Shown here: in pieces, positions 1-15,527 of the stretch
How positions within the stretch are numbered: the first letter of the stretch is position 1
Layout of the letters: each line of letters begins with the position of its first letter
Source: a virus
Length of the DNA stretch: 20,728 bases
Direction: 5' to 3' (one strand)
Virus record (IMG/VR): IMGVR_UViG_3300013120_000153
Span: 1 to 20,728 of that record
The notes under the pieces: generated by a model
Databases searched by the model: none
The model's input: only the letters and a program-made list of their open reading frames with translations
What the model was told of the DNA's origin: nothing
Translations under genes and position numbers: made by a program

Positions 1-1175
1 GAGGTTAGTTTCATCTGGACTGTACCAGTTCCTGTACCAGTATAAAACCATAACGCACCTCTTACTCCGTCGTGTCCTCCGCCAAAGTCAGTTACCCAAT
101 CTATGCTTGCGGGAGTGCTAGAGCTGTCATCAGAATAGAAATCTATTGCTCCTAAGACTTGGTTTCCAGAAAATCCATCAACTTTCTCACTATACAATGT
201 TAAAGTTGAAGTCGTTGTTGCTTTTATTTTGACATCTTCACCGGCGGTGCTAATGATTAAGTCACCTGCTCCTACATTGAATAAAGCATCTGTTTGATTA
301 TGAGTTAATTCCCAATAATCTGCTGCTACTGTTTCATCTGCGGAATATCCACGCACTACAGGGTTAGCACTTGTACCGGAAGGAGAACGATTAGCATTAC
401 CCATATCAGCTTTTTGCATAAATGAGAAATATCCAGAGCCGTCTGCTGTTCCTACATTAGTTCCAAATTGCCAGTTATCATTACCCGTAGTTTCCCAAGC
501 CCAAGCTGCGTCTTGTCCTGTACCTACGAGGAAAATAACATCATCAAATAAATAAGGTGAGGCTGTCCACTTGCAGAGGACTTCTATTTTTAACCCTGCA
601 CCTGTGGTAGAATTTATTAAAACATCATCAGGGTCAGTTTCAAAATCGAGTGTAAGATTTTCATTATTTGCCCCGCCAACCCCACCGATAGTTAATATTC
701 CAGAAGAAGCTGCACCTGCCAAGAAATCGACATTAACATATATATTATCAGCACTTGCGTCTACTACAAAAGCATAAGCTTGATTATTAGTTTCTACTCG
801 AAAGTCATCGTTGCCAGTATTACCACCTGCTTCATTTACCGTAAGACCTGCGTCTATCGTTGATATACCTGCTGAACCTGTTGTTACTATAATAGCACCA
901 GTAAAAGGCATATTAGCAGCATCTAGACGTGCATATATGGTATCTCCCTCAGTCTCGTTTATATAATCAAGAGTACAGGTTAGATCTCCATTATCGGTAA
1001 GAGTAGAATTAGGTACTAGTAGTGTAATGGGTGTGTAAACTGTAGGACTACCGTCTTCCTCTGCTACATCTAACATTAGCTGTAATTCGCCTGTATGCGG
1101 ATTATTAACATCGCCAGCAAAAGCAATACTACTAATCGCAAACAAGAAAACTACAGCTAATAATAGTTTTTTCAT
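1..1175 (-). CDS. Fibre-like beta-rich protein with Sec signal peptide (partial, C-terminus beyond the window)
   Basis: The open frame begins at ATG 1175 and runs through the left edge without a stop, giving at least 391 residues. Residues 1-20 are a signal peptide (MKKLLLAVVF... ending SIAFA before G). The rest is beta-rich and repetitive in style: DDFRVETNNQAYAFVVDASA, ILTIGGVGGANNENLTLDFE, DNWQFGTNVGTADGSGYFSF and the final visible GALWFYTGTGTGTVQMKLT. These short strands with VDASAD and TIGG-type turns are typical of phage tail fibres and long surface proteins; a C-terminal tip or chaperone domain may lie outside the window. GAGGGG precedes the ATG. It is the third signal-peptide protein of the operon. 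The call as an adhesin or fibre is moderate. Confidence 0.68.
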   Translation of the reverse strand, partial: MKKLLLAVVFLFAISSIAFAGDVNNPHTGELQLMLDVAEEDGSPTVYTPITLLVPNSTLTDNGDLTCTLDYINETEGDTIYARLDAANMPFTGAIIVTTGSAGISTIDAGLTVNEAGGNTGNDDFRVETNNQAYAFVVDASADNIYVNVDFLAGAASSGILTIGGVGGANNENLTLDFETDPDDVLINSTTGAGLKIEVLCKWTASPYLFDDVIFLVGTGQDAAWAWETTGNDNWQFGTNVGTADGSGYFSFMQKADMGNANRSPSGTSANPVVRGYSADETVAADYWELTHNQTDALFNVGAGDLIISTAGEDVKIKATTTSTLTLYSEKVDGFSGNQVLGAIDFYSDDSSSTPASIDWVTDFGGGHDGVRGALWFYTGTGTGTVQMKLT

Positions 1176-1445
1176 TTACCCCTCGGCAAAAGCTGTATTT
1201 GGATTATTATAACTAAGAGCTGCTCTACCAGTCCAACCAGTTGCGGCACTTGTATTTACCGGTGTTGTATAAGTATAGGTTGTAGTATTCGTAGATCTTA
1301 CCTGCTTCATAATATACCAATACCCAGTGCTATTCATATACTGGTAATACGAGGTGGCAGCTACTTCTTGTTTAATCGCAAACCAAGTAACTAGGGTACC
1401 ACCTCTGTTATGGTATTGAAATAAATGGTCATTTATTTCGGGCAT
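1176..1445 (-). CDS. Small aromatic-rich tail-region protein
   Basis: An 89-residue protein rich in Tyr, Thr and Asn, with SYYQYMNSTGYWYIMKQV in the middle and TGWTGRAALSYNNP near the end. Such tyrosine-rich, GYWYI-containing small proteins sit next to tail-fibre genes in several phages. The role is unknown, but a tail-associated component is plausible. The ATG directly follows the coiled-coil gene's stop (TAAATG), with GGAG eight bases upstream. Its own stop directly abuts the next ATG (TAAATG), so the three genes are tightly coupled. No signal peptide or membrane segment. Confidence 0.6.
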   Translation of the reverse strand: MPEINDHLFQYHNRGGTLVTWFAIKQEVAATSYYQYMNSTGYWYIMKQVRSTNTTTYTYTTPVNTSAATGWTGRAALSYNNPNTAFAEG

Positions 1446-1895
1446 TTAGCTTACTCCAAACTTCTGTTTCATCTCCTCAATAAACTTAGCTTTCCAAGTT
1501 TTCTTTTCTGCATCAAGACTAATCCACTCACCTTGAATCATCTTTAGTGCATCTTCAGATTTCTTAAAGTTAATAGCTGTCTGTTTCTTAGATGTTTCCG
1601 TAGCTTCTTTATCGGCTTGGACATTTGCTGCATGAGTATCCTTTGCCTTTGCAAGAGCTTTTTGGTCTAATTCTAGTTTTTTAATATCTTCGTCAATTCT
1701 CTTTCTTAAAACAACTACGTTTTCTATACCTTTTATTTCGTTTTCTCTTTTTACTAATTCTCCTTCTTTGGAAGTAACTTCTGCAGTACGCAAATCTAGT
1801 TTTTCGGTACGTTCTTTTTCTAGTTTATTATACTGAGTAACTTTTTCCTTAAGAAGTCTTAGTAATTCTTCAATACCTCTTAGTAATTCTTCCAT
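1446..1895 (-). CDS. Coiled-coil protein
   Basis: A 149-residue protein that is almost all charged and helical, with heptad-like spacing: MEELLRGIEELLRLLKEK, then EKERTEKL, ENEIKG, LRKRIDEDIKKLELDQKALAKAK and a C-terminal AEKKTWKAKFIEEMKQKFGVS. A 15-base direct repeat at 1857-1871 and 1878-1892 with a 21-base period encodes the repeated heptad (M/I)EELLR(G/L). There is no signal peptide or membrane helix. GGGGGG lies before the ATG. Likely roles are a trimerising tail-fibre adaptor or chaperone, judged from location between tail genes and the fibre-like gene. No family is recognised. Confidence 0.6.
   Translation of the reverse strand: MEELLRGIEELLRLLKEKVTQYNKLEKERTEKLDLRTAEVTSKEGELVKRENEIKGIENVVVLRKRIDEDIKKLELDQKALAKAKDTHAANVQADKEATETSKKQTAINFKKSEDALKMIQGEWISLDAEKKTWKAKFIEEMKQKFGVS
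1857..1892. repeat. 21-base-period direct repeat (heptad duplication)
   Basis: The 15-base unit TCTTAGTAATTCTTC (plus strand) occurs at 1857-1871 and again at 1878-1892. The 21-base period equals seven codons, one coiled-coil heptad, in the first residues of the coiled-coil gene. Confidence 0.8.
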
Positions 1896-1904
1896 AAACC
1901 CCCC

Positions 1905-2342
1905 TTACTTATCTTCAACTACAGTTACTGTTATATCAGCATTCTCGCCTATAGCTCCAGTTGACGTTGCTCTTATCCTAATATGTGGAGCTGTAATTTT
2001 TGTATCCAACCATCCAGCATAAGTAGCATCATCAGTAAGCTCTTCTGAAGTTTGAGCTGTTGCTCCACCTGCTACGTCAAACCAAGAAACATCATGCCAG
2101 TTTGTTCCATCTGCTGAAATTGCTACTGTTATGGTAGTAGTTATACCAACAGTAGTACCGTCTTGATCGTAAGTAATAAAAAATGTTACTCTTTTAGAAT
2201 CACCTACATAAATGTCTCCTGAAGTCGTATCGGAAACACCCGTTAGAGTTTCAGTTTCTATTACCTCTGTCTGAAGCTGATTAGCAAAAGACAGATTTGC
2301 TATGAAAACCAGTGCTAACAAACAAATTACTAACTTCTTCAT
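1905..2342 (-). CDS. Secreted beta-sandwich-like protein with Sec signal peptide
   Basis: A 145-residue protein. Residues 1-20 are a clear signal peptide (MKK, hydrophobic core, NLSFA before N). The mature part is Thr-rich and beta-predicted, with VGDSKRVTFFITYDQDG, TITVAISADGTNWHDVSWFD, and HIRIRATSTGAIGENADITVTV at the end. This pattern (SADGTNW followed by a RIRATS strand) is common in small phage structural or baseplate-type beta-sandwich proteins. AGGAGG precedes the ATG, and the gene lies 13 bases after the large ejection protein. A second signal-peptide protein in the same operon suggests deliberate export. Function unknown; it may coat the cell surface or be a tail component that passes through the membrane. 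Confidence 0.7.
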   Translation of the reverse strand: MKKLVICLLALVFIANLSFANQLQTEVIETETLTGVSDTTSGDIYVGDSKRVTFFITYDQDGTTVGITTTITVAISADGTNWHDVSWFDVAGGATAQTSEELTDDATYAGWLDTKITAPHIRIRATSTGAIGENADITVTVVEDK

Positions 2343-2355
2343 GCTACCCTCCTTT

Positions 2356-5300
2356 TTATCGTAAACTTAAATACTTCCTATATAGTGTCTGCGTTAACAG
2401 TTTATCTTCTACCATTTGCGCTAGAACTTTCTTCAATGCTTCGCCTTTTAACTTAGCTGTCTTTTCTATAGCAATAGCAATCCTAGCAGTATTTTGAGCA
2501 TCGGTTATAAACTTGTTTATTCTTTTAGTTTTAATATCATCCGGTATTGCTTCGTAATTCTCATCGCTCATAAATTCTAATATTCTTTCGTAAGCAACTC
2601 TTCCAGATTCTTTCCACAGTTTAGTATTCTCTTGTTGTGTCAATGATTTGTAACCAAACTTAGTACCTAGTTGTGTAGTTTTAATTTTGTTATCATTATT
2701 TACTAATCTACGTATTTCTTCTACAACTGGGTCATGTTTTATCTTAGATGGCCTTGTAGGGTCAACCATAGATTCAATAAAATGCGTAGTTCTTTCTACT
2801 TCTCTACCAAATACATCTATTCTAGGTTCGAGTACTTTTCTTAATATAGGAATCCTAGAAATAAGTCTTTGCGTTAATCCTTGCGCCACTCTTATTTTTG
2901 GGTCAGTAGATACAGCAACATCTTTTACTATTGTAGGTACTACAGAAGATACAAAACTACTTACAAAATTACCGGCACTTCTTTTTGGATCGTCTATAGC
3001 ATTTAGAAATCTATTTACACTTTGCAAGAAAGTCTGTTCTGTAAATGACCTTATTCCACCAAATGTGCCTTGTGCTAAAGCTCCTGCTATACTTCCTTTA
3101 TCTTCGTATGCCTTAGCAAAATGCCCACCTATTAAAATAACATTACCTAACGGCCCAAAGGTTTGTACAGTACGCCACTTGCCACCTACTTTTATAGAAT
3201 TAGGTTTTTTACCTTCAAGATGCCATAAACGCCGTTCTGCTTCAGTTTTAGGTCTATCTAAACTTACCATACCTTTCTTATATAAGTATGCGCCAAAGCC
3301 AAGTATAGCAGTTCCTATAGCACCTCTACCCATACCCTTAGAAAAATCTCTTTGATCGAACTTACCTTTACCCATATTCTTGAATAAAGTCTTAAATACT
3401 CCAACTGGAGTATAGTTTAGAATCTGCGTAGCTACAGCTGATGGTGTTCTTCCAAACGGTAATATAAGGTGAGCACCAGGGCCTAAGTTCTGGAATTTCT
3501 TAGCTAAATTACCAAGTGCAGTTTCATTCTGATATACTGCGATCTTAGCATCTTCTATAGAATATAAAGCCATTTCTTCTGTAGGATTCATTACTAGATT
3601 ATCAATAAAGTCTTGAGCTTCTTTACCTTTTAGGCCTTTATTAATCGCGGCTACTTTCGCTTGTTCATATAGTGAGCGCATTTTAGCGCCATAATAAAAA
3701 GGTTGGTCTTCAGTTCCCAATATATTAAAGATAGTTTCTTCATACTTTTGCAAACCCTTTGCAAATTTACTCGAACCCATATTAACACGCTTATAATCAT
3801 ATTTAGACAATACATTTCTTTCATCGTATCCTGTTTTTAAGAATCGCCAACCTTTATCCGCACCCTCTTTAGTACCTTTGAATATTCCTTTAATAGTAAA
3901 AGCCACTGACCTTTTACCGGTTCCCACAGAGGCTATAATATCTATAACTGTAGCTGGAAAGTCTTTAATAGTTTCTGATATTGCATGGGCTATATTTGAG
4001 AATATATTTAAGCCGCTAGTTTTAATTCCAGTTAAAAGTCCTGCTTTCCATACAGTAATTATTTTTTCTATCAAAGGCGTAGGTACAAGATCCGTAATAT
4101 AGTCTTGCAGCTTCTTAAACTGTATTCCTTTTTCTTCACCTGCGGGCATCTTTTCTATAGCATTCATTCTAGTAATAATTTCTTTTGTCTGCGCTGGAGT
4201 TAATTCTGGTATTTTCTTTCTTAAACCAAGAGCACCACCTTTTGTCTTTTCTATTTGTTCGTTATATTTTTGTATACCCTTAGCTGCGAATCTTATCTGT
4301 CCTTCTGGTGTAAGTCTAGCTACAATAGAGGCCGCTTGAACTGACCTACCTAGTTCAGTTAATCTATGCGCCATTGAATGGGCTAATTCTGCAGCTTTCT
4401 CATATACGGCATCTTTAATCGTTTCGTCGGTTACGCCTTCTGCGTCTTTTGCATACTTCTTTAATAGCTCGGCACCTACTGCTATAGAAGCGTCATCAGT
4501 TCCTGTAGCTGCCATTTTTTGAGCTGTAGTTAAATTGTCTTTAATTAAATTCTTCGCCTTTATAGCAAGAGCATCTGTTTCTCTTGGGATATATTGTCCT
4601 GCTACTTTTATAGATGGTAATGCTCCCTTTACTGTTGATACAAAGCCACGTTCTTTAGGTTCTGGTTTTACTATAGTTTCTTTAGGTACTTTTGTAGGAG
4701 TAATACCAAGAACGGTTAATTCTCCTATAAGTTGTTTAGATAATCCTTGTAAATTACCACTCTCAATAGCCGATACTTGTTTAGGTGTAAGATTATATTT
4801 CTTAATTAAATCTTTTCCTATAAATACACCTCGTTGACTTCCTAGCTTAGAGTTTTTATATAATCTACCTACGTGCTTGTATATAGATTCTCTAGTAATT
4901 TTTATTAGCTTATATGCTTCTGTAGTCTGACCAAACTTAACTGGATCTCCGCCTCTATCTGGGTGTTGTTCTAAAGATAATTTCCTATATTGTTTCTTGA
5001 TTTGAGTTTCAGAACTTTTAGGATCTATACCTAGAGTCTTAAATGCTTGATTAAGTTTTACTTTATTGCCACCTATTTCTTTTGTGAGTAGATTATACAA
5101 ATCTGGATTCGTAGATCTTAGTCGTGTTAATGCTGCAGGTATCTTTTTGAATCCTGCTCCTATTGTCCACGCGATTAGCAAAGCTGTAGGATCAGTAACA
5201 AATTCAGTTAAACTTTCAGCTAGTTCTATTGGTAGATTCTTTAATGTTTCTTTATTTATTCCCTCTGGTACTTTTAACTTATCCAAAAATGGTTGCAAAG

Positions 5301-5739
5301 CAGGATTAGCACCAACTAGAATAGATCTTAATCCAGCATCTAAAGTTTCTCCTATAGCAGTTCGCATATCTTCTGACCAAGAACTCTTATAAATTAAATC
5401 TGCCCAACTAGAACTTTCAGCTTTCTCTATACTTTCTAAATCTTTTGGCATACCCATAGCAACCCACTTAAACGATGCAGCTCGTTCTGCATTAGGCCCA
5501 ACAAGAAAGTTTGCAGTTTCTATTTGTCTTGGAGAAAATGCACCAAGTATCGGCATATTATATAACATATCCATAGTAGTTTTTACAGCAGTTTGTAAGA
5601 CTGTAGGTTTTACTGGCTTTTCTACTAGCTCACCCTCATATACTGGTTCTGCCGTAGCCAAATCGATAGTCTCAGATGGTTCGATAATACCACCTGTTCG
5701 TTCTACTACCGGTTGAGCTGTTTTTAGATTAAAACCCAT
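2356..5739 (-). CDS. Large internal virion (ejection) protein, gp16-like, with a J domain
   Basis: An 1127-residue protein, the largest helical one here, in the position of T7 gp16. Residues about 229-285 match a DnaJ J domain: KTLGIDPKSSETQIKKQYRK, then LEQHPDRGGDPVKFGQTTEAY, with the HPD triad at 259-261 (encoded at 4957-4965). J domains stimulate Hsp70/DnaK ATPase through HPD. Helical regions follow, including KAGLLTGIKTSGLNIFSNIA (565-584), which resembles large phage ejection or polyvalent proteins, and GPGAHLILPFGRTPSAVATQ (753-772). Hydrophobic stretches at about 582-605 and 806-820 could contact membrane. No lysozyme-like transglycosylase motif was found at the N-terminus, unlike T7 gp16. 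The start overlaps the previous stop (TAATG). The J domain is clear; the ejection role is from context. Confidence 0.8.
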   Translation of the reverse strand: MGFNLKTAQPVVERTGGIIEPSETIDLATAEPVYEGELVEKPVKPTVLQTAVKTTMDMLYNMPILGAFSPRQIETANFLVGPNAERAASFKWVAMGMPKDLESIEKAESSSWADLIYKSSWSEDMRTAIGETLDAGLRSILVGANPALQPFLDKLKVPEGINKETLKNLPIELAESLTEFVTDPTALLIAWTIGAGFKKIPAALTRLRSTNPDLYNLLTKEIGGNKVKLNQAFKTLGIDPKSSETQIKKQYRKLSLEQHPDRGGDPVKFGQTTEAYKLIKITRESIYKHVGRLYKNSKLGSQRGVFIGKDLIKKYNLTPKQVSAIESGNLQGLSKQLIGELTVLGITPTKVPKETIVKPEPKERGFVSTVKGALPSIKVAGQYIPRETDALAIKAKNLIKDNLTTAQKMAATGTDDASIAVGAELLKKYAKDAEGVTDETIKDAVYEKAAELAHSMAHRLTELGRSVQAASIVARLTPEGQIRFAAKGIQKYNEQIEKTKGGALGLRKKIPELTPAQTKEIITRMNAIEKMPAGEEKGIQFKKLQDYITDLVPTPLIEKIITVWKAGLLTGIKTSGLNIFSNIAHAISETIKDFPATVIDIIASVGTGKRSVAFTIKGIFKGTKEGADKGWRFLKTGYDERNVLSKYDYKRVNMGSSKFAKGLQKYEETIFNILGTEDQPFYYGAKMRSLYEQAKVAAINKGLKGKEAQDFIDNLVMNPTEEMALYSIEDAKIAVYQNETALGNLAKKFQNLGPGAHLILPFGRTPSAVATQILNYTPVGVFKTLFKNMGKGKFDQRDFSKGMGRGAIGTAILGFGAYLYKKGMVSLDRPKTEAERRLWHLEGKKPNSIKVGGKWRTVQTFGPLGNVILIGGHFAKAYEDKGSIAGALAQGTFGGIRSFTEQTFLQSVNRFLNAIDDPKRSAGNFVSSFVSSVVPTIVKDVAVSTDPKIRVAQGLTQRLISRIPILRKVLEPRIDVFGREVERTTHFIESMVDPTRPSKIKHDPVVEEIRRLVNNDNKIKTTQLGTKFGYKSLTQQENTKLWKESGRVAYERILEFMSDENYEAIPDDIKTKRINKFITDAQNTARIAIAIEKTAKLKGEALKKVLAQMVEDKLLTQTLYRKYLSLR

Positions 5740-7256
5740 TATTTTCCTTTTAACTCCTTAAAGGTAAAATCTCCAAGTTCTTCTTTTGTTTCTTGCTTAG
5801 GTTTTTTTATTGCTTTGTTTTCTACATCTTTTAATTCGCCTGTAGGAAAACCAATTTTCATATTACCATTTTTATCTATTAACATTTGTCCTTCTTTGGG
5901 GTAGTTTGCCATTCTAGGATTAAGTTTTAGATTTGCTTCGTTAGTTACTCTCTTATAAGCATTTAGAGGAGTTTCGTTTTTCTCTAAACCTTTCATATAT
6001 TCCGATATTACAAAACCATGTTGATCTTCAGTAACAGACCCATCCCTGGCCCAACGTGCTATTGCATTGATTCCATAGTCTACTTGTTTCTGATAAATTT
6101 CAGCTTCTGTAGTTTCGTCACCTATTGGGCCAACTAGCTTTTCTGATAACTGAAGATTAACTGATTTCTTTCTAGCATAAAATAATATAGCACCTAACTT
6201 ATCAGCGCTAATATTTTTATTCCTATATATAGCACTTGCTGCAATTCTACTTAAAGAATCTCTAGTCTCTGCTTTGCTGGCTTCCTTAAATACTTTTACA
6301 ATACCCTCGTTTGCTGTGTCAGCGTAATAGCCAGTTCTAGACCTTGTGGCTTTACTTACAGCTTCTGCAAGAACATCGTCGCTGTTAATTAACTCTTGTG
6401 CCTCTGGACTTAGTTCATAAAGAGATTCTTGGCCGGTTGCTATAGCTTCTACTAAATCATATCTACCATTTACTTTATTCAACATTACGTCTTTATCTTC
6501 TAAATTTTTATAATGGTTCAAAGTAGATAATGCTGTATCAGTTTCTTTTTGGTCAAACCCAAATTCTCCATTTTCTAACATTTGCTTTGCTTTATCTCGG
6601 TCTATCTTAGCAGTACGTCTAAACCAATTCTGGTTACCTAGCTTTAATGCTTTCTGTTCTTCATCATAAGCTTTTTTGGTATCCCATATATTACTTGCTA
6701 CTGCTTCTGCGGTTAAATCTTTTATTCCTTTAATAGCTTCTTTAGAGCCATCAAAAAATTCTGACTTCTTTTGTAAGGCACTTCTTGTATTTACATCACC
6801 AACAACGGCCATATTTTTGTAGCGTTCTTTTATTACGTCATTAGTTAAAACTATACTATCTTTATCCCAATTAGCTTGAGCTACAACTAAATCAGTACTA
6901 TCTGTATAAATAGTTGTAAGATTTTCTCTACCTCTATTTAATCCCTCTTGAAAATCTGATAAATCTAAATCAGTTAAAGGTGTTCCATCCGCATTACGTT
7001 TCTGACTTTCTGATAATCTTAATTGAGCCATATAATCTGTTTTATAAAGATCAGCTCTTGAGTTTTCAGTAAACCTTCTAGAGTCGTCTAGTTTCTTATA
7101 AAGTACATTAGCGGTTTGTGCTATAGTTCCACCAAGCGACTTTAGGCCACCACTTATACCTATAGGTCTTCCTTGTTTAGCTTGTGGCGATTGAGTTGAT
7201 ACTTGAGGACTTACTAATTGCGCTGAGCCTGGTCTTATTACGGGTATTCTAGCCAT
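5739..7256 (-). CDS. Internal virion (ejection) protein, gp15-like
   Basis: A 505-residue protein that is almost entirely charged and predicted helical after a flexible N-terminus (MARIPVIRPGSAQLVSPQV). It includes helices such as LYKKLDDSRRFTENSRADLYK and repeated Lys/Glu-rich stretches, and ends in a basic-acidic tail (KKPKQETKEELGDFTF). No catalytic motif is visible. T7 gp15 is larger but has the same position and helical character, acting in the periplasmic tunnel through which DNA passes. AGGTG precedes the ATG, and the stop overlaps the next start (TAATG), so it is coupled to the large ejection protein. The assignment is positional. Confidence 0.65.
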   Translation of the reverse strand: MARIPVIRPGSAQLVSPQVSTQSPQAKQGRPIGISGGLKSLGGTIAQTANVLYKKLDDSRRFTENSRADLYKTDYMAQLRLSESQKRNADGTPLTDLDLSDFQEGLNRGRENLTTIYTDSTDLVVAQANWDKDSIVLTNDVIKERYKNMAVVGDVNTRSALQKKSEFFDGSKEAIKGIKDLTAEAVASNIWDTKKAYDEEQKALKLGNQNWFRRTAKIDRDKAKQMLENGEFGFDQKETDTALSTLNHYKNLEDKDVMLNKVNGRYDLVEAIATGQESLYELSPEAQELINSDDVLAEAVSKATRSRTGYYADTANEGIVKVFKEASKAETRDSLSRIAASAIYRNKNISADKLGAILFYARKKSVNLQLSEKLVGPIGDETTEAEIYQKQVDYGINAIARWARDGSVTEDQHGFVISEYMKGLEKNETPLNAYKRVTNEANLKLNPRMANYPKEGQMLIDKNGNMKIGFPTGELKDVENKAIKKPKQETKEELGDFTFKELKGK

Positions 7257-7263
7257 TATTCAC

Positions 7264-7818
7264 CTATCCTATCGTTTCTTTTGGCGGCTGCGGAGCTGGT
7301 TTAGTTACAGCTGCTTTAGGTTTTAAGAATTGTGCAGAACTTAACAATGTTCCACCTGCTTGTAAAGTAGCAGAAGTAGCCATAGCTCTACCAGTTAATC
7401 TGGTTATTACTGCACTTGATCTTTTACTACTTGCTGCTATATCCGCATTATATTTAGCAATAGCTATTTGATTTTTTGCATTAAATTGTCCTATAGCAAT
7501 TTCAAGTTCCGCGTTAGATATTGAATCGGCAATTACATCTACAGGACTTCCAGTTTCTACGGCTACACCACTGGCCGCAAATGCACTGACTTGTTCTCCT
7601 GTTGTAGTTGCTAAATTTTTTCTTTGTCGATATTCATTGAGTGCTGCATTTTCTTTTACTATTTTTGTTTCTCTTTCTACGCCAGCTAATATAAGTTCCA
7701 CATTCTGTTCGTCAATTCTAGCATTGTATTCTGCTTGTATCTTAGCTTCTTGTCCAGCTGTATATTGTCCTATAGCCGTTAATCCTATTCCTGCTACTGC
7801 TATATAAGTAAATGACAT
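7264..7818 (-). CDS. Internal virion protein, gp14-like
   Basis: A 184-residue Ala-rich helical protein in the position of T7 gp14, which exits the capsid first and makes an outer-membrane channel. The N-terminus (about 3-20, FTYIAVAGIGLTAIGQYT) is hydrophobic. A long amphipathic helix follows (QAEYNARIDEQNVELILAGVE). The segment GEQVSAFAASGVAVETGSPVDV is characteristic of a widespread podovirus structural protein. The C-terminus is Pro/Lys-rich (KPAPQPPKE). GAGGGG precedes the ATG. Assignment rests on order, size and this conserved middle segment; membrane-pore activity is inferred from the T7 analogy. Confidence 0.72.
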   Translation of the reverse strand: MSFTYIAVAGIGLTAIGQYTAGQEAKIQAEYNARIDEQNVELILAGVERETKIVKENAALNEYRQRKNLATTTGEQVSAFAASGVAVETGSPVDVIADSISNAELEIAIGQFNAKNQIAIAKYNADIAASSKRSSAVITRLTGRAMATSATLQAGGTLLSSAQFLKPKAAVTKPAPQPPKETIG

Positions 7819-7819
7819 A

Positions 7820-10800
7820 TTACCCCTCTTCCACGGCGCTTCTAAGTATAATTGCCAGAATATTCGCCGGTAATGGTTTAGTTTGTTTTATGTATATCTC
7901 ATCTTCTCTATTCCATGTAGTCTGAAATACTTCAGCCATATCCCCTGTAAATAAAGCTTCGTCATCTGTTTCGTCGACATAACTTAAACTTTCTAGTTGA
8001 TCTTCATCTCTACCTATAGATAATCCTTGAGTACGATCTAATCTTAAAGTACCCTTAAAGATTCTACGCATTCTTGATTGACCAGTTCCAGTAGGACTAC
8101 CATCTGATAACTTCAATAGCTGTATAGTTCCAACATAACGAAGTCCTACGTGTACTACAGCGGCAGCAGCCGATAAAGTAATACCTCCACCAGATACAAG
8201 ATAAGTTTCTGTTGAAGGAATATATCCGTCTACTTGAGCATATACAGTTTCTCCCTCTAGATGATCAAGACCTGTTATAGCAGTTACCATCTTTCTTACT
8301 TCGCCACCAGAAATATAAGTAGTATAAGCCGAGCCGTCTAAGTCAACTCCAACTGAAGTCTGTAATTCAAAAGTGTCATCTGTTTTATCGGCTACATAGT
8401 AAGTATTACCATTTAACTCCGTCATACCCACAATACCATTTATCTTAACCTGGTCTCCGTTAGAGAAACCATGGCTTACTGCCGTTACAACCACAGGGTC
8501 AGCTACTGTAGCACCGGTAATAGTTATTGGACTATCTAGCGTTAATGAGGAGTCAACTCTTACAGCATCCCAATCTTCATCAAAATCTTCGTTAGAGAAA
8601 TATTCAATAAACCTTTTATCTGTACCATTTATATTACGTTTAACCACAACCCAAACTTGATCAGCTTCTTCTGATTTTGGTATTACTGCTACTGATTCAA
8701 AAGTACCATTTCCTTGAGCATCAGCTCCTGCTACAAATCTACACCAACCCATAACTTCTTGTTCTGGATTGCGCGTTAAAACAGACATCTCGCCATCTTC
8801 CCTTACGCAGTAAATTCTATCGTTAGGTGATTGCTGGTGGTCTAAGTCTACTACAGTTCCACCGTCTTTTAGAATATGCTCTGCTAACAAAGTCATATCG
8901 CTTGAGATAGTAGAGTCTACTTGAAAAGAATAAGACAATTCTCTTAACCTTGAAAAATCTCTTTGTATATAATATAAATAAGAAGATATTCTTTTTGGTG
9001 GAAAACTTGCTACTCCATAATTGGTGTCTCTTTTTACTACTATATTTGTAGGTGAAATTGAAGCTGTAGTATCTCCAGCAGAAGCAGAAAAAGTTCCACC
9101 TATAGTACCTAAAGACAATACTCTATTGCCAGAGGACAACCATCTAATAGCATTTCGTTGTTCGGTAGCAACTTCAAAAGTCAAAGAATAATTAGCTGTT
9201 GTAGCTGTAGTATCAAAACTATCATAAGCTTTTGTATATGAACCCCAAAACTTTTGTGGCTCATGGTCTGTATTAGCATAATATAATTTCTGTTCGTGAA
9301 AAGCAATAGCTGACGGCCATCCTCTGTAATCCGAGAAAGCACCCTCAGCCCAATCTGTTACAGCGCCAGGGCCTGTATTCAAATCTCCTGCAGTTCCATC
9401 TGGTTCTGCTTCTACATCACCAGTTACAACAGTAGTAGAAGTATATGCCGTTATCTTTACCATACCCTCTTTAACTCTAAAAAAAGCGCCTATATGCAAA
9501 ACATCAAAGATAGCTGTAGAAGCAGTTAAAGTTATACCGGCGCCGGTGTCGGCTGAAGGCGTTATAGTTGTAGCAGTAGTGTTGGTATCCTTTAGTGGAG
9601 CTCTAACAAAAGATACAAGAGATAAGCTAAAAGCACTAGCACCAGTTCTTGATAACTTTCTAGGAGCATAGTCTGGGTGAACTATATACATAACATCGTT
9701 ATACTGCGCTACCTGTAAATCAAAGACATCAGCTACAACATAGGGAGTAGAAATTTCTGTTTGTTGTGAAGCAGCAGCCGTATGAGCAGAAGTAGGAATT
9801 ACTATAGTATCCGTATTGTCTGCGTTGGGGTCTGCGCTAAAAGCATTTGAATTGATAATCCTTACATCGTCTATACTTCCCTGGAAATAATCACCTGGTA
9901 CTCCTGTAGCACCTATATATACGTCACCAGCAAATGTATCGGTACTACTATCCTGCACGTATGCGACTTGAGTTCCATCCTTATAAAGACCATATTTGTC
10001 TGCCCTTTTGCAAACAGCTATATGATGAAAAGTGGTATTATCTGTAATCTCGCCACCGTAACCCGTAGTTATAATCGTCACTCCACCTGAAACCGCAATA
10101 AATCTAAGACCGGACCCGTGAACATGCTGCAATAGCCAGTAGTTATTAGCGTCCTCCCACTGTACGATTAAAGTTTCTGTTCCAACATGGTCCGCAAATT
10201 TCACCCATAAATCAATAGTCCAGTTATCATCAGCAGATTTTATTACGTCAAATTCCGCGCTATCGGATATTTGCAGATAATCGGAATCACCATCGAGAAG
10301 AAGCGAAGCTGTACCAAATTTCTTAGCGTCTGTATCTAACAAAGCCGTTCCTTGAAATTGCGTTCTATGAAATGAAGCTGAAGCATCCTGAGAGTTGCAG
10401 TGAAGCAATAACGAAGTATTAGCATCAGAGGTATGCGCTGCTGTTGGTGCTGTAAAATCAGTAGACCACCTCGCTACACCTTTTGATACACGGATTTCGT
10501 CCATATATCCATCCATATATCGAGCTGATGTATTTCCTAATCTACCTATAACTAAATCAGCAGCCGTTCCGCCTATATCATAAGCAACAGCCCAAGTAGC
10601 GCCTATCTGCGTACCGTCTATAAACACCTTTACATTTGCGCCGGTTATTCCTACTACTGTTACATGATACCAAGTATCTACAACAGGAGACCAAGCAAAG
10701 TTCTGATTATCACCTTCTAAATCTACTCGAATGCCAGTACCAGAAATAAATCTTACACCCCAAGAGTTTCCCCAGTCACCATCATAGTTGGTAATAAACG

Positions 10801-11371
10801 CATATTCTATGGCTGCTACGACGTCCATACGAATCCAAAAGTCAACTGTAAAACTACCTGTTCCAAAATCCCAGTCAGCGTGGTCTGGTACTGTTAGATA
10901 GTCACTATTTCCGTCAAGAAGAAGTGAACCGCTACCAAATTTCTTTTGAAGGGTAGACATCTGTGCAGTAGCAACAGTTGAAACAACGTGTCCTGTATTT
11001 CCACTGTCTATGAACTCTTTTGAACCGTCTACGCCTGCATCGTTAGGCAATAATAGTTTCGTTAAGTCAACTGTCTGTTCGATAAGGTCTGCACCATTAG
11101 AATATAGCCTAAAATACTGGTCTCCTGCTTCTACTACATAATCTTGGTCAGCAGAATATTGAAAAGGAAATATCTTAGCTACTCCATTATCTTTAGTTGA
11201 AGCAAGATATTTAAGGCCTGGCCGAAAAGAAACTCCACCTAATTGGTTTATTAAAAAATTCTCTATCTTAGCTGCACCAGAAGAATATTTGGCTAAATCA
11301 AACCGGCCTTTACCTTTAGGCGACCATTCTCCACTTGTTAAAGCATTTACTACACTAGTTGCTTTAGGCAT
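7820..11371 (-). CDS. Tail tubular protein B (gp12-like nozzle) with two LamG-like domains and one FCCH-like module
   Basis: An 1183-residue nozzle protein, much longer than T7 gp12 (about 790). Core parts are recognisable: the N-terminus (VVNALTSGEWSPKGKGRFDLAKY, GGVSFRPGLKYL), STPYVVADVFDLQVAQYNDVMYIVHPDYAPRKLSR at about 541-575, and YRGWPSAIAFHEQKLYYA. Residues about 105-308 and 320-538 are two LamG/concanavalin-like domains, each with FGTASLLLDG-type and DYL motifs, a WYHVTV or FHHIAV strand and a closing MDEIRVS or IDDVRII strand. A FCCH-like module lies at about 951-1030. A GTG at 11392 could extend the frame, but the ATG at 11371 has GAGG upstream and overlaps the previous stop (TAATG), so I used it. 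LamG domains usually bind glycans, so host-surface contact is inferred. Confidence 0.88.
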   Translation of the reverse strand: MPKATSVVNALTSGEWSPKGKGRFDLAKYSSGAAKIENFLINQLGGVSFRPGLKYLASTKDNGVAKIFPFQYSADQDYVVEAGDQYFRLYSNGADLIEQTVDLTKLLLPNDAGVDGSKEFIDSGNTGHVVSTVATAQMSTLQKKFGSGSLLLDGNSDYLTVPDHADWDFGTGSFTVDFWIRMDVVAAIEYAFITNYDGDWGNSWGVRFISGTGIRVDLEGDNQNFAWSPVVDTWYHVTVVGITGANVKVFIDGTQIGATWAVAYDIGGTAADLVIGRLGNTSARYMDGYMDEIRVSKGVARWSTDFTAPTAAHTSDANTSLLLHCNSQDASASFHRTQFQGTALLDTDAKKFGTASLLLDGDSDYLQISDSAEFDVIKSADDNWTIDLWVKFADHVGTETLIVQWEDANNYWLLQHVHGSGLRFIAVSGGVTIITTGYGGEITDNTTFHHIAVCKRADKYGLYKDGTQVAYVQDSSTDTFAGDVYIGATGVPGDYFQGSIDDVRIINSNAFSADPNADNTDTIVIPTSAHTAAASQQTEISTPYVVADVFDLQVAQYNDVMYIVHPDYAPRKLSRTGASAFSLSLVSFVRAPLKDTNTTATTITPSADTGAGITLTASTAIFDVLHIGAFFRVKEGMVKITAYTSTTVVTGDVEAEPDGTAGDLNTGPGAVTDWAEGAFSDYRGWPSAIAFHEQKLYYANTDHEPQKFWGSYTKAYDSFDTTATTANYSLTFEVATEQRNAIRWLSSGNRVLSLGTIGGTFSASAGDTTASISPTNIVVKRDTNYGVASFPPKRISSYLYYIQRDFSRLRELSYSFQVDSTISSDMTLLAEHILKDGGTVVDLDHQQSPNDRIYCVREDGEMSVLTRNPEQEVMGWCRFVAGADAQGNGTFESVAVIPKSEEADQVWVVVKRNINGTDKRFIEYFSNEDFDEDWDAVRVDSSLTLDSPITITGATVADPVVVTAVSHGFSNGDQVKINGIVGMTELNGNTYYVADKTDDTFELQTSVGVDLDGSAYTTYISGGEVRKMVTAITGLDHLEGETVYAQVDGYIPSTETYLVSGGGITLSAAAAVVHVGLRYVGTIQLLKLSDGSPTGTGQSRMRRIFKGTLRLDRTQGLSIGRDEDQLESLSYVDETDDEALFTGDMAEVFQTTWNREDEIYIKQTKPLPANILAIILRSAVEEG

Positions 11372-12192
11372 TACAACCTCGCTTCTTCCCACTCAGACAT
11401 TTCTAATTCTTCTGGGCTACCCTGCGAGCTATCGGCTCCCATAGCTCTTGGTAAATCTATATTCTCATATTTTGCTACAAGATCTTTTGTTCTATTGGCA
11501 GACTGTGTAAGCGAGAAACATATCTCCGAAGCAATTTTAGTAGCCAGCGCCGTAACAAACTGTGATGAATAAAGTGTAGGGTCTTCATTTCTATAGGTGT
11601 ATATCATTTTTAAGCTATTAGTATCAGAATAAATATAACCGGCTTCTACAGTCCAATAAGCATCTCTATTTGAAAGTATATTCACTCTTATAAAGTCAGT
11701 AGGTAAAGTATATTGATAAGTAGATTCGTCGTCGTCCATTGAAAGGTCAGATAACTTTGTTATGTAACCATTTTCGGTATAAGCGGTATAACCCGAACCA
11801 TCTACATCTGTACCTACCGCTGACTGTAGCTCAAAAGTATCAGCTGTTTTACTTGCTACAAAATAAGTCTCACCGTTTACTTCTGTCATACCATCAACTG
11901 AAGTTATTATTACTTCGTCTTCATCGGAAAAACCATGCGCCACAGAAGTTACTACTGGTGGGTTAGCTGCTGTTATACCAGTAATTACTTTAGCTAAATT
12001 CATTCTTTTCTGAGCAAAAGTCCATGGGTGTTCTGATAAGACTTGATCTAAAGCATAGGCATAGCTATCCTCAATACGTTTACTTTCTTGAGATACAGGT
12101 GTAGTTAATTCAGCAGAGGTTATTCTCTTTGATCCTATCATACTTAAAGCTAAGTTACATATTTGTAATTTAGTTACAGTTCCTGTAGCCAT
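11371..12192 (-). CDS. Tail tubular protein A (gp11-like adaptor) with FCCH-like insertion
   Basis: A 273-residue protein that should form the adaptor ring between the connector and the tail nozzle. The N-terminal part, MATGTVTKLQICNLALSMIGSKRI then RIEDSYAYALDQVLSEHPWTFAQKR, is the hallmark of the podovirus tail tubular A family. The C-terminal part (YTYRNEDPTLYSSQFVTALATKIA, then LTQSANRTKDLVAKYE) is also typical. Between them, residues about 70-147 are an extra beta module: PPVVTSVAHGF, then EVIITSVDGMTEVNGETYFV and TFELQSAVG. This resembles the FCCH-like repeats (named from E1 enzymes) seen in phage proteins. The same module occurs in tail tubular B. AAGGAG lies six bases before the ATG. 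Confidence 0.88.
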   Translation of the reverse strand: MATGTVTKLQICNLALSMIGSKRITSAELTTPVSQESKRIEDSYAYALDQVLSEHPWTFAQKRMNLAKVITGITAANPPVVTSVAHGFSDEDEVIITSVDGMTEVNGETYFVASKTADTFELQSAVGTDVDGSGYTAYTENGYITKLSDLSMDDDESTYQYTLPTDFIRVNILSNRDAYWTVEAGYIYSDTNSLKMIYTYRNEDPTLYSSQFVTALATKIASEICFSLTQSANRTKDLVAKYENIDLPRAMGADSSQGSPEELEMSEWEEARL

Positions 12193-12195
12193 AAT

Positions 12196-12561
12196 TTACT
12201 CCTTATTCATTTCACGCCATTTATCAGCTAGTGCTTTATTGTTATTACAAAATTCTATTGCCAACGCTATATCTTCTATCCTTAATGCGTTGCCGCCACC
12301 TGCGGCCATACGTAATTTTTCTTGTATTGAAAATTTATCCCATGGTACATCAGTTACTATATATGTTTTGCCACCTCTGCCATCTGCAACAACAGGTACT
12401 TCGCATCCTCTAAATTCTTCGGTTCCCATAGGTGTTCCTGCAGCTGGATAATTATTGTATACTACCTCAACTTTTTTTGGTTGTAACAAAAAATATGTTG
12501 ACAAAGATAAACTTATAATAAGCATCACAAAAATAATAATATTTCCCCATTTATTAAACAT
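12196..12561 (-). CDS. Single-pass membrane protein downstream of the Wzy/WaaL-like gene
   Basis: A 121-residue protein with a short basic head (MFNKWGN), one membrane helix at about 8-27 (IIIFVMLIISLSLSTYFLL) and a soluble C-terminal domain predicted outside the cytoplasm. The domain contains GTEEFRGCEVPVVADGRGGKTYIV and EFCNNNK. Its two cysteines could pair in the periplasm. The ATG at 12561 follows AAGGAG by six bases and overlaps the end of the Wzy/WaaL-like gene by eight bases. An in-frame ATG at 12582 lacks such a site and was not chosen. I recognise no family. The tight overlap suggests a shared role with the upstream enzyme. An inner-membrane spanin is an alternative, but the domain does not look coiled-coil. 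Confidence 0.65.
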   Translation of the reverse strand: MFNKWGNIIIFVMLIISLSLSTYFLLQPKKVEVVYNNYPAAGTPMGTEEFRGCEVPVVADGRGGKTYIVTDVPWDKFSIQEKLRMAAGGGNALRIEDIALAIEFCNNNKALADKWREMNKE

Positions 12562-13618
12562 AATATTCTCCTTGTTTAGCACAATAAGCTAAAAACATTA
12601 TAATAATCAGCACCGACTGACACATTCTATCTGGAAAATGAACTGCCATATTTACACCTACAACAATAAGACCAGACTGCTTTACTGGGTCTCTTGTTCG
12701 CCAGGCAATAGTACCTATTAAACCTAGTAATAAAATAAACCCTGGTACACCTATTTCAAAAGGTATTTGCAACCAAGAGTTATGCGCTCTTGCCCATTTA
12801 GCACCTACTTGCTGACCTCTTACAAAGTTACTACAAAGATATTGAAATAATATTTTATATGTAGCTATACCATAACCCATAGGATTTTTAACTACTAATT
12901 CTGCTGTTTCTTTCCATACAGGTCCTCTGCCAGCTACGGTAAATACCCTAATGTCGTCGGTCTTATAAGCAAACAATAAAGGAAAAACAATAGCAACTAT
13001 TATTATAGGAATCCTAAGCTTTCTAACTGTTCTAAATAAAAAGTATCCAGCGCCTAAAACTATCGATAGCATCATGCCGCTTGAACCAGATATAAATGCT
13101 ATAATAGCTATGGGGAGCCAGTTTAATTTCTTATGTATAAGGAAAGGTGTTAATATACAAACAAAAGAAGATAACATCATCTTGTTACCTATCGTACCTA
13201 ATATAACCGGTGTTTTTAATCCAAAATTAAGAAGTGTATCTTTACCAAATAATTGCATTATGATAAGTAAGGTTATAAAAAAGAATATAGCTTGAATAGT
13301 TCTTTTGACTGGTTCAAAATCTTCTATCTTAGTACAGGCCACGTAGTAATAAGTACAAACTACTACCGTCCAAAACATTGTAAAAGACATGTAAGGTGCT
13401 CTTGAGATAAAACAAGATACAAAACACCATATCAAAAGTAACTTAAGAAAAACATTTGTCTTAAAGTTTATTAGCGCAAAAGAAAGGAATCCAGAAGTAA
13501 ATACTGTCCATACCCAAACCAAAGAGTTAAAACTACAATCAAGCTTAAACTCCCAGGGCGGAGTAAGAGCAAACAGTACTAGAGGAAATAATAATATATG
13601 AGTCAAGTATTTTTTCAT
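12554..13618 (-). CDS. O-antigen ligase/polymerase-like (Wzy/WaaL) membrane protein
   Basis: A 354-residue polytopic protein with about eleven hydrophobic segments and one large loop between segments 8 and 9 (about 219-291). That loop carries the family signature: GRGPVW (R231, W235), NPMGYGIATYK and AHNSWLQIPFEIGVPG (H279, N280). In WaaL and Wzy enzymes, a loop Arg and a His in the His-Asn pair are needed for joining glycan repeats to lipid A core or to each other. The role here is inferred: changing host surface polysaccharide during infection or lysogeny. It starts eleven bases beyond the terminator-like hairpin with no clear Shine-Dalgarno sequence, suggesting low expression. It sits among virion genes, which is unusual. 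Whether it polymerises, ligates or inhibits the host enzyme cannot be told. Confidence 0.78.
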   Translation of the reverse strand: MKKYLTHILLFPLVLFALTPPWEFKLDCSFNSLVWVWTVFTSGFLSFALINFKTNVFLKLLLIWCFVSCFISRAPYMSFTMFWTVVVCTYYYVACTKIEDFEPVKRTIQAIFFFITLLIIMQLFGKDTLLNFGLKTPVILGTIGNKMMLSSFVCILTPFLIHKKLNWLPIAIIAFISGSSGMMLSIVLGAGYFLFRTVRKLRIPIIIVAIVFPLLFAYKTDDIRVFTVAGRGPVWKETAELVVKNPMGYGIATYKILFQYLCSNFVRGQQVGAKWARAHNSWLQIPFEIGVPGFILLLGLIGTIAWRTRDPVKQSGLIVVGVNMAVHFPDRMCQSVLIIIMFLAYCAKQGEYYV

Positions 13619-13620
13619 AC

Positions 13621-13650
13621 TTAAAAGTGAGGGTGTTAAGGCACACCCTC
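13621..13650 (-). terminator. Terminator-like hairpin after the capsid cistrons
   Basis: On the minus strand, GAGGGTGT (13650-13643), loop GCCTTA and ACACCCTC (13636-13629) form a perfect 8-base-pair GC-rich stem, followed by ACTTTTAA. The T-run is short, so termination may be partial. It lies between the signal-peptide protein and the Wzy/WaaL-like gene, where it would lower expression of downstream genes relative to the capsid cistrons. On the plus strand the stem has no T-run after it. Confidence 0.55.
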
Positions 13651-13664
13651 GGAAGCCTTGATGG

Positions 13665-14198
13665 TTATGTTACAGTTACCCCAGTCTGGCCGATAATTAT
13701 CCAACCAGTAGTGTCGTCTGCATATAAAAGAGTCACTGTATCTAATATTGAATCAAAAGCAATATCATCCCAGCCAGTCTCAACAACTGCTGCTTGACCC
13801 GAACCGCCCAGGCCATCATCTGAGATGGTGATAGCTGCACCTATGGAATCCAAGGTAATGGTAACCATTTGTCCAGCTGTACCTGCTGCAAGCGATATTG
13901 TCTTAGGTGCTCCTACCCCCTGAAGTTTTATAACTCCATAGGCTAAGGAGGCAGCAGTCAACCCAGATGCTGTTGAGGCATGGGTTGTAACCCCGTCCTT
14001 GTGTCCATTTGCAAGTATGGTTACTCGTGAACCATCTAAGGTAAGATCTTGACCTTCGATATTTAGCTGGATAGCTTCTCCAACGTAAGTCTCGACACTA
14101 GCATCAAATTCTTCCTCGATTGAGACCGTCCCTGCAAATGCTACATTAACAAAGGATAGGAGAGCGATACACATCGCTATTCCGATAAATTTTCGCAT
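13665..14198 (-). CDS. Secreted beta-rich virion-like protein with Sec signal peptide
   Basis: A 177-residue protein. Residues 1-22 form a textbook Sec signal peptide: MRK, a hydrophobic core, then NVAFA before G. The mature part is Gly/Ala/Thr-rich, with an acidic start and a C-terminal domain (GQMVTITLDSIGAAITISDDG, GWDDIAFDSI, DTVTLLYADDTTGWIIIGQTG). That C-terminal pattern is typical of beta-sandwich or fibre-head modules in phage tail and head proteins. AAGGAG precedes the ATG, and the gene belongs to the capsid cistrons, so it is probably abundant. A terminator-like hairpin follows its stop. It could be an exported surface-binding protein or a virion protein that uses the hydrophobic N-terminus for membrane contact. 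Function unknown. Confidence 0.7.
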   Translation of the reverse strand: MRKFIGIAMCIALLSFVNVAFAGTVSIEEEFDASVETYVGEAIQLNIEGQDLTLDGSRVTILANGHKDGVTTHASTASGLTAASLAYGVIKLQGVGAPKTISLAAGTAGQMVTITLDSIGAAITISDDGLGGSGQAAVVETGWDDIAFDSILDTVTLLYADDTTGWIIIGQTGVTVT

Positions 14199-14212: not shown

Positions 14213-14629
14213 TTATTCTACTGTGTAAAATACTATTAACGTAATAACGCCAGCACTTGTAACCGCTGCGTCAAGAGTTAATGTAAACTGTGTAGTCGTC
14301 GATGCGATTTCTTTGTTTATACTATCAACAGCTGTAAACGGTGTAACTGTGTTATCCGTAGCTTCGTCAAGATATAAAGCTGCGGTTACACCATCGCCCA
14401 AGTCGGGTGTGTTGCCAGTGGTATCTAGTCCTAGCATTCCGTATAGAACCTTTGCACCTACTGGTAAAGCTCCACCCAGAGCAATTGTTTCAGCTGCACT
14501 TTCGGTACCTAGACCTACATAGGTATCGACCAAACATCTTACATTTCCACCTTGTTCTCCTGGATCAAGAACGGTGGCCGGTGTAATAGCCGCAATCTTT
14601 GCTGCATTTACTCCATTATACGTTGCCAT
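14213..14629 (-). CDS. Capsid decoration/stabilisation-like protein
   Basis: A 138-residue beta-rich protein immediately after the capsid gene, where podoviruses often encode a cement or decoration protein. It begins MATYNGVNAAKIAAITPATV and has NVRCLVDTYVG, then LPVGAKVLYGMLGLDTTGNTPDLGDG, a pattern I associate with phage head-region structural proteins. It ends in a beta strand (VITLIVFYTVE). There is no signal peptide. AGGAGG lies six bases before the ATG. Likely soluble and bound to the outside of the shell. The assignment depends on position and general resemblance; binding to the capsid is inferred. Confidence 0.7.
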   Translation of the reverse strand: MATYNGVNAAKIAAITPATVLDPGEQGGNVRCLVDTYVGLGTESAAETIALGGALPVGAKVLYGMLGLDTTGNTPDLGDGVTAALYLDEATDNTVTPFTAVDSINKEIASTTTQFTLTLDAAVTSAGVITLIVFYTVE

Positions 14630-14663: not shown

Positions 14664-15527
14664 TTATGCTTCGTAGCATGCAATTTCTACACATTTCGCC
14701 TCGTCCATACGAGTCGCGCCGGCAGATAACGATGCATACGCCTGCGTTGCATGATGCTTCGTAGGAATAATATCTAGCTTGGCTACCATGCCTGTACGCT
14801 TTGCTAGAGTTACACCTGACTTTGCCCATGCAAGAACAGTTCTTGTCGTGCCAGAAAGTACAATCCTCTGGGTTCTAACAAACTTGAAGCCCATGAATGT
14901 GTCTACTCTGCCTTCAACAAGCGCTTTGATAGAATTATAATCGATTGATTTAACTTCAGCGGTGTTTAATAGGTTGGAAATCTGTGCTGCAGAACAGGCA
15001 ATATATCTTTCCTCGTCAGGATCTACTTCAGCTGCGTCAAGTAACTGCTTCGCGCTGATAAGTTTTGCTAAAGTAAGCCCTGCTGTTCCGTTAATTGCTA
15101 TCTGGTTTGCTGATGTAAACGTGGTAGAAGTTCCACCTGCTTTGCCAGTATAAGCAGTACCGGAAAAAGCTGCTATAATCATGTCGTCTATCTTTCTTCC
15201 GATTGCCCATGCGCCGGCTTTCATCAACCCTGAAGTTGGGTCAAGAAGCATAGCAAGCTTATCTTCTTTGTCAATAAGCTTTGACCAGTATACATCTATA
15301 AACGATACTCTACGTCTCTTATAATCGTCTGCTGCATACTTTACATCTACATTACGCGTGTCCTTTTCACTTGCTGTATCTTCGCCGTACTGGTCGAAAT
15401 ACTCTTCCTCACCATACGAACCAGTCTCAACATTTACGCAATCGGTGAGTCTTGAGCCTTTTTGCTGTGAAAGCAAATCCATCGTACTACCGAATTGCTT
15501 CACAAAGGCAGTGGTTATATTAGCCAT
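14664..15527 (-). CDS. Major capsid protein
   Basis: A 287-residue protein expected to form the icosahedral shell, probably with an HK97-like fold. It begins MANITTAFVKQFGSTMDLLSQQKGS and has an N-terminal arm rich in acidic and aromatic residues (EEEYFDQYGED). A P-domain-like region with IGRKIDDMIIAAFSGTAYTG follows. Later come ISNLLNTAEVKSIDYNSIKALVEG and FMGFKFVRTQRI, the pattern of podovirus capsid proteins of the BPP-1 and marine podovirus type. It ends KCVEIACYEA. The ribosome binding site is strong and follows an A-run (AAAAAAAAGGAG), suitable for the most abundant virion protein. Position after scaffold and before a decoration-like protein supports the call. Confidence 0.9.
   Translation of the reverse strand: MANITTAFVKQFGSTMDLLSQQKGSRLTDCVNVETGSYGEEEYFDQYGEDTASEKDTRNVDVKYAADDYKRRRVSFIDVYWSKLIDKEDKLAMLLDPTSGLMKAGAWAIGRKIDDMIIAAFSGTAYTGKAGGTSTTFTSANQIAINGTAGLTLAKLISAKQLLDAAEVDPDEERYIACSAAQISNLLNTAEVKSIDYNSIKALVEGRVDTFMGFKFVRTQRIVLSGTTRTVLAWAKSGVTLAKRTGMVAKLDIIPTKHHATQAYASLSAGATRMDEAKCVEIACYEA

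Follow-up and report, generated by a model that had tools for sequence, protein, structure and literature searches.

Why should a phage place export signals on proteins that look like parts of its own particle? Structural proteins of tailed phages are expected to stay in the cytoplasm, and the question is raised by a 20,728-base IMG/VR virus contig (IMGVR_UViG_3300013120_000153; the whole stretch is called the window hereafter), in which three genes of a late operon start with a signal peptide (SP). Our answer is that systematic SPs on fibre-type proteins are a property of a lineage of uncultivated short-tailed phages, a conclusion which stands on several independent sequence tests, and that the phage very probably ships these fibre-like proteins out of the host cytoplasm, because the SPs are kept across distant relatives. 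The SP-type N-termini that the initial annotation had noticed on three genes were borne out, with scores of 6.17-6.62, for the following open reading frames (ORFs):

13665 to 14198, minus strand: P0001, an SP (MRKFIGIAMCIALLSFVNVAFA, predicted to be cut before GTV) followed by a conserved N-terminal module of about 30 residues and a phage-fibre-type beta domain
1905 to 2342, minus strand: P0002, an SP (MKKLVICLLALVFIANLSFA, before NQL) followed by a jelly-roll domain
3 to 1175, minus strand: P0003 (P0007 in its full form), an SP (MKKLLLAVVFLFAISSIAFA, before GDV) on a fibre-like protein truncated by the window end

All three ORFs have an ATG start and a purine-rich ribosome site upstream, strong for P0001 and P0002 (AAGGAG/AAGGAGG) and weaker for P0003 (CCGAGGGG). 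SPs were called by a home-made rule-based scorer, tuned on 15 Escherichia coli SPs and used with a threshold of 5; it gives 6.17 for P0001 (cut between VAFA and G), 6.17 for P0002 (LSFA and N) and 6.62 for P0003 (IAFA and G), which in every case equals or exceeds the score of a typical E. coli SP. By chance, a score of at least 5 is reached by 0.3% of shuffled N-termini and by 9 of 916 spurious ORFs (about 1%), and the shuffles of each peptide itself score 6 or more in 0.1-1.4% of cases. At the same threshold no longest-start ORF was flagged in 50 kb of E. coli; with annotated starts MlaC and LptA were recognised and DacB was narrowly missed, and these misses imply that the scorer undercounts SPs.

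The three genes turned out to be real members of an incomplete list. A near-identical 38-kb contig (IMGVR_UViG_3300009314_000252; loci L002, L006 and L008) extends the window past P0003, whose full form, P0007, has 936 residues (L006 11168-13978) and is followed by P0008, a beta-helix-like protein of 485 residues with a clear SP, and by P0009, of 117 residues, with an SP-like start that the rule did not call. No fewer than four proteins of the window phage therefore have a clear SP, and the number is probably five. Further along the same contig, a DUF1353 protein (phrog "tail assembly chaperone"; L006:16297-16962, plus strand) carries a C-terminal extension with a lipoprotein-like start, LMLGLTGC, possibly an embedded o-spanin, and another SP-bearing ORF of 138 residues (MKKTLVLCVVFVVCFSMFVFA, cut before EEV; L006:17005-17421, minus strand) lies on the other strand and runs towards the late operon.

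Apart from P0009, which was not called, these N-termini have the sequence features of Sec substrates of signal peptidase I, namely a charged n-region, a hydrophobic core of 7-15 residues and small residues at -3 and -1; in the four called proteins the n-region is positive, the uncharged cores span 11-18 residues and the ends are A-x-A-like. No lipobox was found, since the predicted cleavage sites have G or N at +1 and no Cys, and lipoprotein sorting through signal peptidase II was rejected on this ground.

P0001 lies directly after the gene of the cement-type protein, and this slot allows the SP to be followed through evolution. In searches with profiles of the major capsid protein (MCP) and of gp12, MCP and slot were both usable in 88 rows, which are not independent and include some near-copies. 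The slot gene beside MCP and cement bears an SP in 16 of the 18 rows of one MCP clade, against 0 of the 70 rows outside it, and on the MCP tree the SP label needs at most 3 changes, compared with 14.9 for shuffled labels. All 14 distinct slot proteins of the clade keep the SP, at 24-55% SP identity to P0001 (that of locus L096 scores 4.97, just under the threshold); in simulated neutral drift to 50% identity only 14% still score as SPs. The SP persists over a range of 36-80% MCP identity, most of the relatives being metagenome fragments, and the P0001 homologues that are about 50% identical have preserved both the SP and the position after cement.

Behind the SP, the slot proteins (124-1202 residues in total) join the conserved module of about 30 residues to one of five unrelated, swapped C-terminal bodies. 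A hidden Markov model that covers the 30 residues behind the SP, was derived only from the group of the window and was searched in 2,760 proteins ranks members of the other groups above all non-members (E 5e-12 to 0.03; best non-member 0.46), the protein of locus L106 not being among the matches listed. This approach, together with clustering, replaced a contrast of pairwise identity between N- and C-terminal parts, which was dropped as uninformative because global alignment inflates the identity of unrelated bodies. A conserved N-terminal module with five unrelated bodies is a modularity of the kind found in receptor-binding proteins. The AlphaFold model of P0001 is poor (predicted local distance difference test, pLDDT, 54), with only the C-terminal domain usable, and it resembles predicted phage tail or fibre proteins. 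The model of P0002, built from three sequences, is moderate (pLDDT 70) and has weak PDB matches to the needle of cyanopodophage Pan3 (template-modelling score 0.31) and to jelly-roll and carbohydrate-binding-module-like folds; a weak F5/8 type C match of the same protein falls below the curated cut-off. A tblastn search of INPHARED found no relatives of P0001, P0002, P0007, P0008 or the L106 slot protein.

Glycan-related cargo seems to concentrate in the slot region itself: a weak MptE-like match lies at L111:8211-8708 and a similar gene occurs in L132, and in L146 acetyltransferase-, aminotransferase- and glycosyltransferase-like genes were seen by eye. In vir555 (L011, BK063671), whose host is written as Methanomicrobiales, several SP-like proteins occur in the fibre region, and another, whose uncharged core is longer and could be a membrane anchor, stands between cement and gp11.

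The distal part of the set is also conserved. In the contig 3300005613_000183 (L106, L176 and L177), whose MCP is 44-45% identical to that of the window, the series opens with a fibre that has a T7-gp17-type N-terminus and no SP. The P0002 orthologue comes next (E 1.5e-28) and has an SP; it is followed by a coiled-coil protein and then by a fibre in which an internal start is SP-like. The last two members, a beta-helix-like protein (45% identity, E 5e-97) and a small protein, both carry an SP. L184 repeats the opening part of the series, so that distal SP genes adjoin an SP-less tail fibre in both phages, and the two P0002 orthologues, at 31-33% identity, both have an SP. Outside the clade with the SP-bearing slot, vir555 and a Manatee Spring podovirus have SP fibres downstream of an SP-less adaptor. 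In a single case, L107:8815-11394 (plus strand), a gp12-type protein carries an in-frame SP-like peptide, MNRFRRIFTILLVGALVFCNTPSAFG, predicted to be cut before AKVTSAKTNFTAGEL, where the predicted mature start coincides with the start of an ordinary gp12.

Cultured phages offer a parallel. Among the control podophages scanned, BcepC6B encodes an SP-bearing protein annotated as tail fiber, gp19 (L190:20959-22032). It comes directly after gp18, a fibre that lacks an SP and has a T7-gp17-type N-terminus, and it precedes the holin. The orthologue in Xanthomonas phage PBR31, orf35 (L196:5932-6741), occupies the same place, and the two proteins are 52-55% identical across two blocks, the SP included. 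Over their last approximately 140 residues, gp19 and orf35 align at 37-46% with the C-terminal tip of the one tail fibre that Klebsiella phage KpV74 has, and gp19 aligns at 39% with the corresponding tip in Pectobacterium phage Peat1. Since the intact fibres of KpV74 and Peat1 have an N-terminal part without SP, the SP of gp19 and orf35 occupies the position of the virion-anchor N-terminus and is joined to a receptor-binding-type tip. The PBR31 protein is annotated "putative structural protein"; under the terms searched, no discussion of orf35 was found in the PBR31 paper, and the searchable literature gave no mention of this arrangement of SP and fibre tip and no description of SP-bearing tail-fibre sets.

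Gene content identifies the window as a BPP-1-like podovirus late module. Its main genes all lie on the minus strand and are transcribed in the order large terminase, short-tail-fibre-like protein, portal (phrog_332), scaffold, MCP, cement-type protein, P0001, Wzy_C enzyme, small transmembrane protein, gp11-type and gp12-type tail proteins, internal virion protein, two large proteins, P0002, coiled-coil protein, 89-residue protein and P0003. The features around the SP genes are:

14664 to 15527, minus strand: MCP (phrog_3437), which defines the clade
14213 to 14629, minus strand: cement-type protein, no SP, upstream of P0001 and part of its genomic context
12554 to 13618, minus strand: P0005, a multi-transmembrane enzyme of the Wzy_C / O-antigen-ligase family (Pfam PF04932, 50.5 bits against a cut-off of 31.7)
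12196 to 12582, minus strand: small protein with one N-terminal transmembrane segment, third gene of the envelope cassette, with a homologue in L005
11371 to 12192, minus strand: gp11-type tail protein (phrog_394), downstream limit of the envelope cassette
1446 to 1895, minus strand: coiled-coil protein of 149 residues, no SP, conserved between SP genes in L176 and L184
1176 to 1445, minus strand: protein of 89 residues, no SP, with a similar gene at the equivalent place in L184

PHROG matches and comparison with L009 and L012 place terL, portal, MCP, gp11, gp12 and the internal virion proteins in BPP-1-like order. BPP-1 and HTVC010P, whose portals (29-35% identity) put them among the nearest cultured phages, have the same gene order; between cement and gp11 they have one small protein, whereas the window has P0001, the Wzy_C enzyme and the transmembrane protein. 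No integrase was found in four records, and no SP-less fibre gene of T7-gp17 type was identified in the phage of the window itself. In GTDB genomes, searched for prophage hosts, the P0001-family alignment had no match; that of the MCP matched 60 loci, at 51% identity for the best, and the SP clade includes none of them. The only features that suggest a diderm host are the Wzy_C partner and the lipobox-like LTGC in a downstream gene. Among the tail genes, the gp12-type protein (7820-11392, minus strand) contains two inserted LamG/concanavalin-like domains (PF13385), possibly a carbohydrate-binding receptor module of its own. A similar inserted domain in the gp11-type (11371-12192) and gp12-type (7820-11392) proteins gives a shared phrog_584 match, its gp12 copy matching PF16190 (E1_FCCH), which suggests intragenomic domain copying; a large internal-virion-type protein (2356-5739, minus strand) has a DnaJ domain (PF00226, 1.2e-09).

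The Wzy_C enzyme is a regular partner of the slot protein. PF04932 is also above cut-off in L096, L104, L106 and L112, and of the 12 loci that show the relevant place, 9 have the Wzy_C gene behind the SP slot protein on the same strand, directly or past one small gene; none was found in outgroup slots. In an alignment of nine proteins, with identities to the window enzyme down to 17%, R231 and H279-N280 are invariant. Their spacing agrees with that of R288 and H338, functional residues of E. coli WaaL (PMC3643930); a counterpart of R215 was not identified. The association is not strict: L107, L109 and L111 have the SP slot gene and no Wzy_C, and in L102 Wzy_C comes right after cement.

We favour a late envelope programme. 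The SP proteins, apparently co-transcribed with capsid and tail genes, would be made late in infection, presumably at a high level given their operon position beside the MCP; they would be translocated via Sec and then cleaved, and the mature proteins may function in the outer envelope or the periplasm of a host that is probably diderm. At that location they would bind the phage's own surface receptors or glycans, and the Wzy_C partner would alter or re-ligate surface glycan, with the joint effect that superinfection is blocked and progeny are kept from sticking to lysed debris. We infer actual export, location, receptor binding and benefit alike from the sequences. That the exported proteins mask the receptor or glycan and that the Wzy_C partner modifies the latter is put forward tentatively, with a chance a little short of even. 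Masking is favoured because SP-less canonical fibres coexist with the SP proteins in L106, L184 and BcepC6B, because gp19 and orf35 join an SP to a tip without a virion anchor, and because genes for receptor blocking or glycan conversion are known to lie next to receptor-binding genes in phages. For example, T5 llp adjoins the receptor-binding gene and its product blocks the receptor (PMC4728585); Oac of phiV10 is annotated as functioning in superinfection immunity and adjoins the tail fibre of a related podovirus. The export programme with a Wzy/WaaL-like enzyme proposed in the initial annotation is well supported by conservation, gene order and cultured parallels, and its receptor mask, although the best-fitting reading, is to be held more loosely. 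Its alternative, a particle built partly beyond the inner membrane, gained no support from the sequences and is not contradicted by them.

Several observations weigh against this proposal. No lipobox or beta-barrel was seen that would tether the proteins at the outer membrane, proteins of 936-1202 residues exceed the size that a mask needs, and L102 has its Wzy_C without an SP gene between it and cement. Moreover, a fibre docked on the virion would likewise show a conserved N-terminal module and a variable tip, and in L107 a core nozzle protein, gp12, itself starts with an SP-like peptide.

The last two points lead to the main rival of masking, a two-compartment assembly in which true virion fibres or head decorations would be exported by Sec, reach their fold in the periplasm and join the released particles when the cell lyses; we consider it rather unlikely. 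The SP proteins do sit in canonical fibre or decoration slots, the module behind the SP stays constant and the bodies change, as in a virion-docking end, the mature gp12 of L107 would begin exactly as an ordinary one, the P0001 model points towards tail and fibre proteins, and no separate T7-gp17-type fibre was seen in the window phage. Yet a separate SP-less fibre or adaptor exists in L106, L184, vir555 and BcepC6B, gp12 has to join the tail before lysis, and free fibres would dilute once cells lyse. To our knowledge, no tailed phage finishes its particles in such a manner. It is doubtful that a podovirus lineage would complete part of its fibre or decoration set outside the cytoplasm, with periplasmic folding, perhaps O-glycosylation by Wzy_C, and docking at lysis.

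It is more doubtful still that enzyme and SP protein form an exported glycoprotein pair, in which Wzy_C would be a PglL/PilO-like protein O-oligosaccharyltransferase and the adjacent SP protein its periplasmic acceptor, export being needed because the transferase faces the periplasm. The adjacent or near-adjacent genes in 9 of 12 loci would agree with the known pattern of PglL-type enzymes next to their acceptors (PMC3643930), and the enzymes stand outside any lipopolysaccharide locus and keep the family R and H invariant. Against it, a scan of P0005 and four further Wzy_C proteins at E<=1 gave no match to the PglL_A motif (PF15864), which is, however, also absent from PilO (PMC3643930), and the loci L102, L107, L109 and L111, where one partner occurs without the other in place, fit poorly.

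It is improbable that there is no export at all and that ordinary virion proteins use these hydrophobic N-termini as membrane anchors or as handles in assembly. Such N-termini are frequent in phage internal virion proteins, two of which scored weakly with our scorer, but the short uncharged cores, A-x-A-like ends and positive n-regions disfavour transmembrane anchors and are kept in several unrelated families, and outgroup slot genes show no such N-termini. Tail fibres recombine freely with other genes, but fortuitous or newly captured leaders of host secreted proteins, without function, are very improbable, as retention at 36-80% MCP identity in several families is hard to square with neutral drift.

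If the late envelope programme is real, it would be a dedicated one, composed of a conserved, secreted, fibre-like multi-gene set in the virion operon and a surface-glycan enzyme, whose genes are now annotated as "tail fiber" or "hypothetical". A caution follows for annotation, since SP-bearing "tail fiber" entries may not denote virion parts, and BcepC6B gp19 and PBR31 orf35 make export and masking directly testable in cultured phages.

Compared with known systems, the window phage shares portal, MCP, gp11, gp12 and internal virion proteins with BPP-1-like and HTVC010P-like podoviruses and differs from BPP-1 and HTVC010P in the SP proteins, which these lack in the same slots. BcepC6B gp19 and PBR31 orf35 also put an SP on a fibre-type protein after the tail fibre or spike and before the holin, and end in a fibre-tip homologue, but they are single genes without detected sequence homology to the window set. 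With PglL and PilO it would share a Wzy_C enzyme adjoining an SP-exported protein (PMC3643930), differing in that no PglL_A motif was detected and the putative acceptor is not a pilin. O-antigen-converting phages, such as phiV10 and Pseudomonas phage D3, which has Iap, a beta-polymerase and an O-acetylase (PMC12373910), likewise encode a surface-glycan enzyme; that of the window is a predicted Wzy_C protein whose gene lies between those of cement and tail tube, its partner being a putatively exported fibre-like protein. A functional likeness may exist to Llp of T5 and BF23, and also to Cor of lambdoid phages, SP-bearing exported phage proteins encoded beside receptor-binding genes. The same placement is found in L176/L177 and L184, no fibre gene having been identified in the window phage itself; Llp is a small lipoprotein, whereas the proteins described here have no lipobox, are fibre-like, number four or five per phage and are encoded in the late structural operon.

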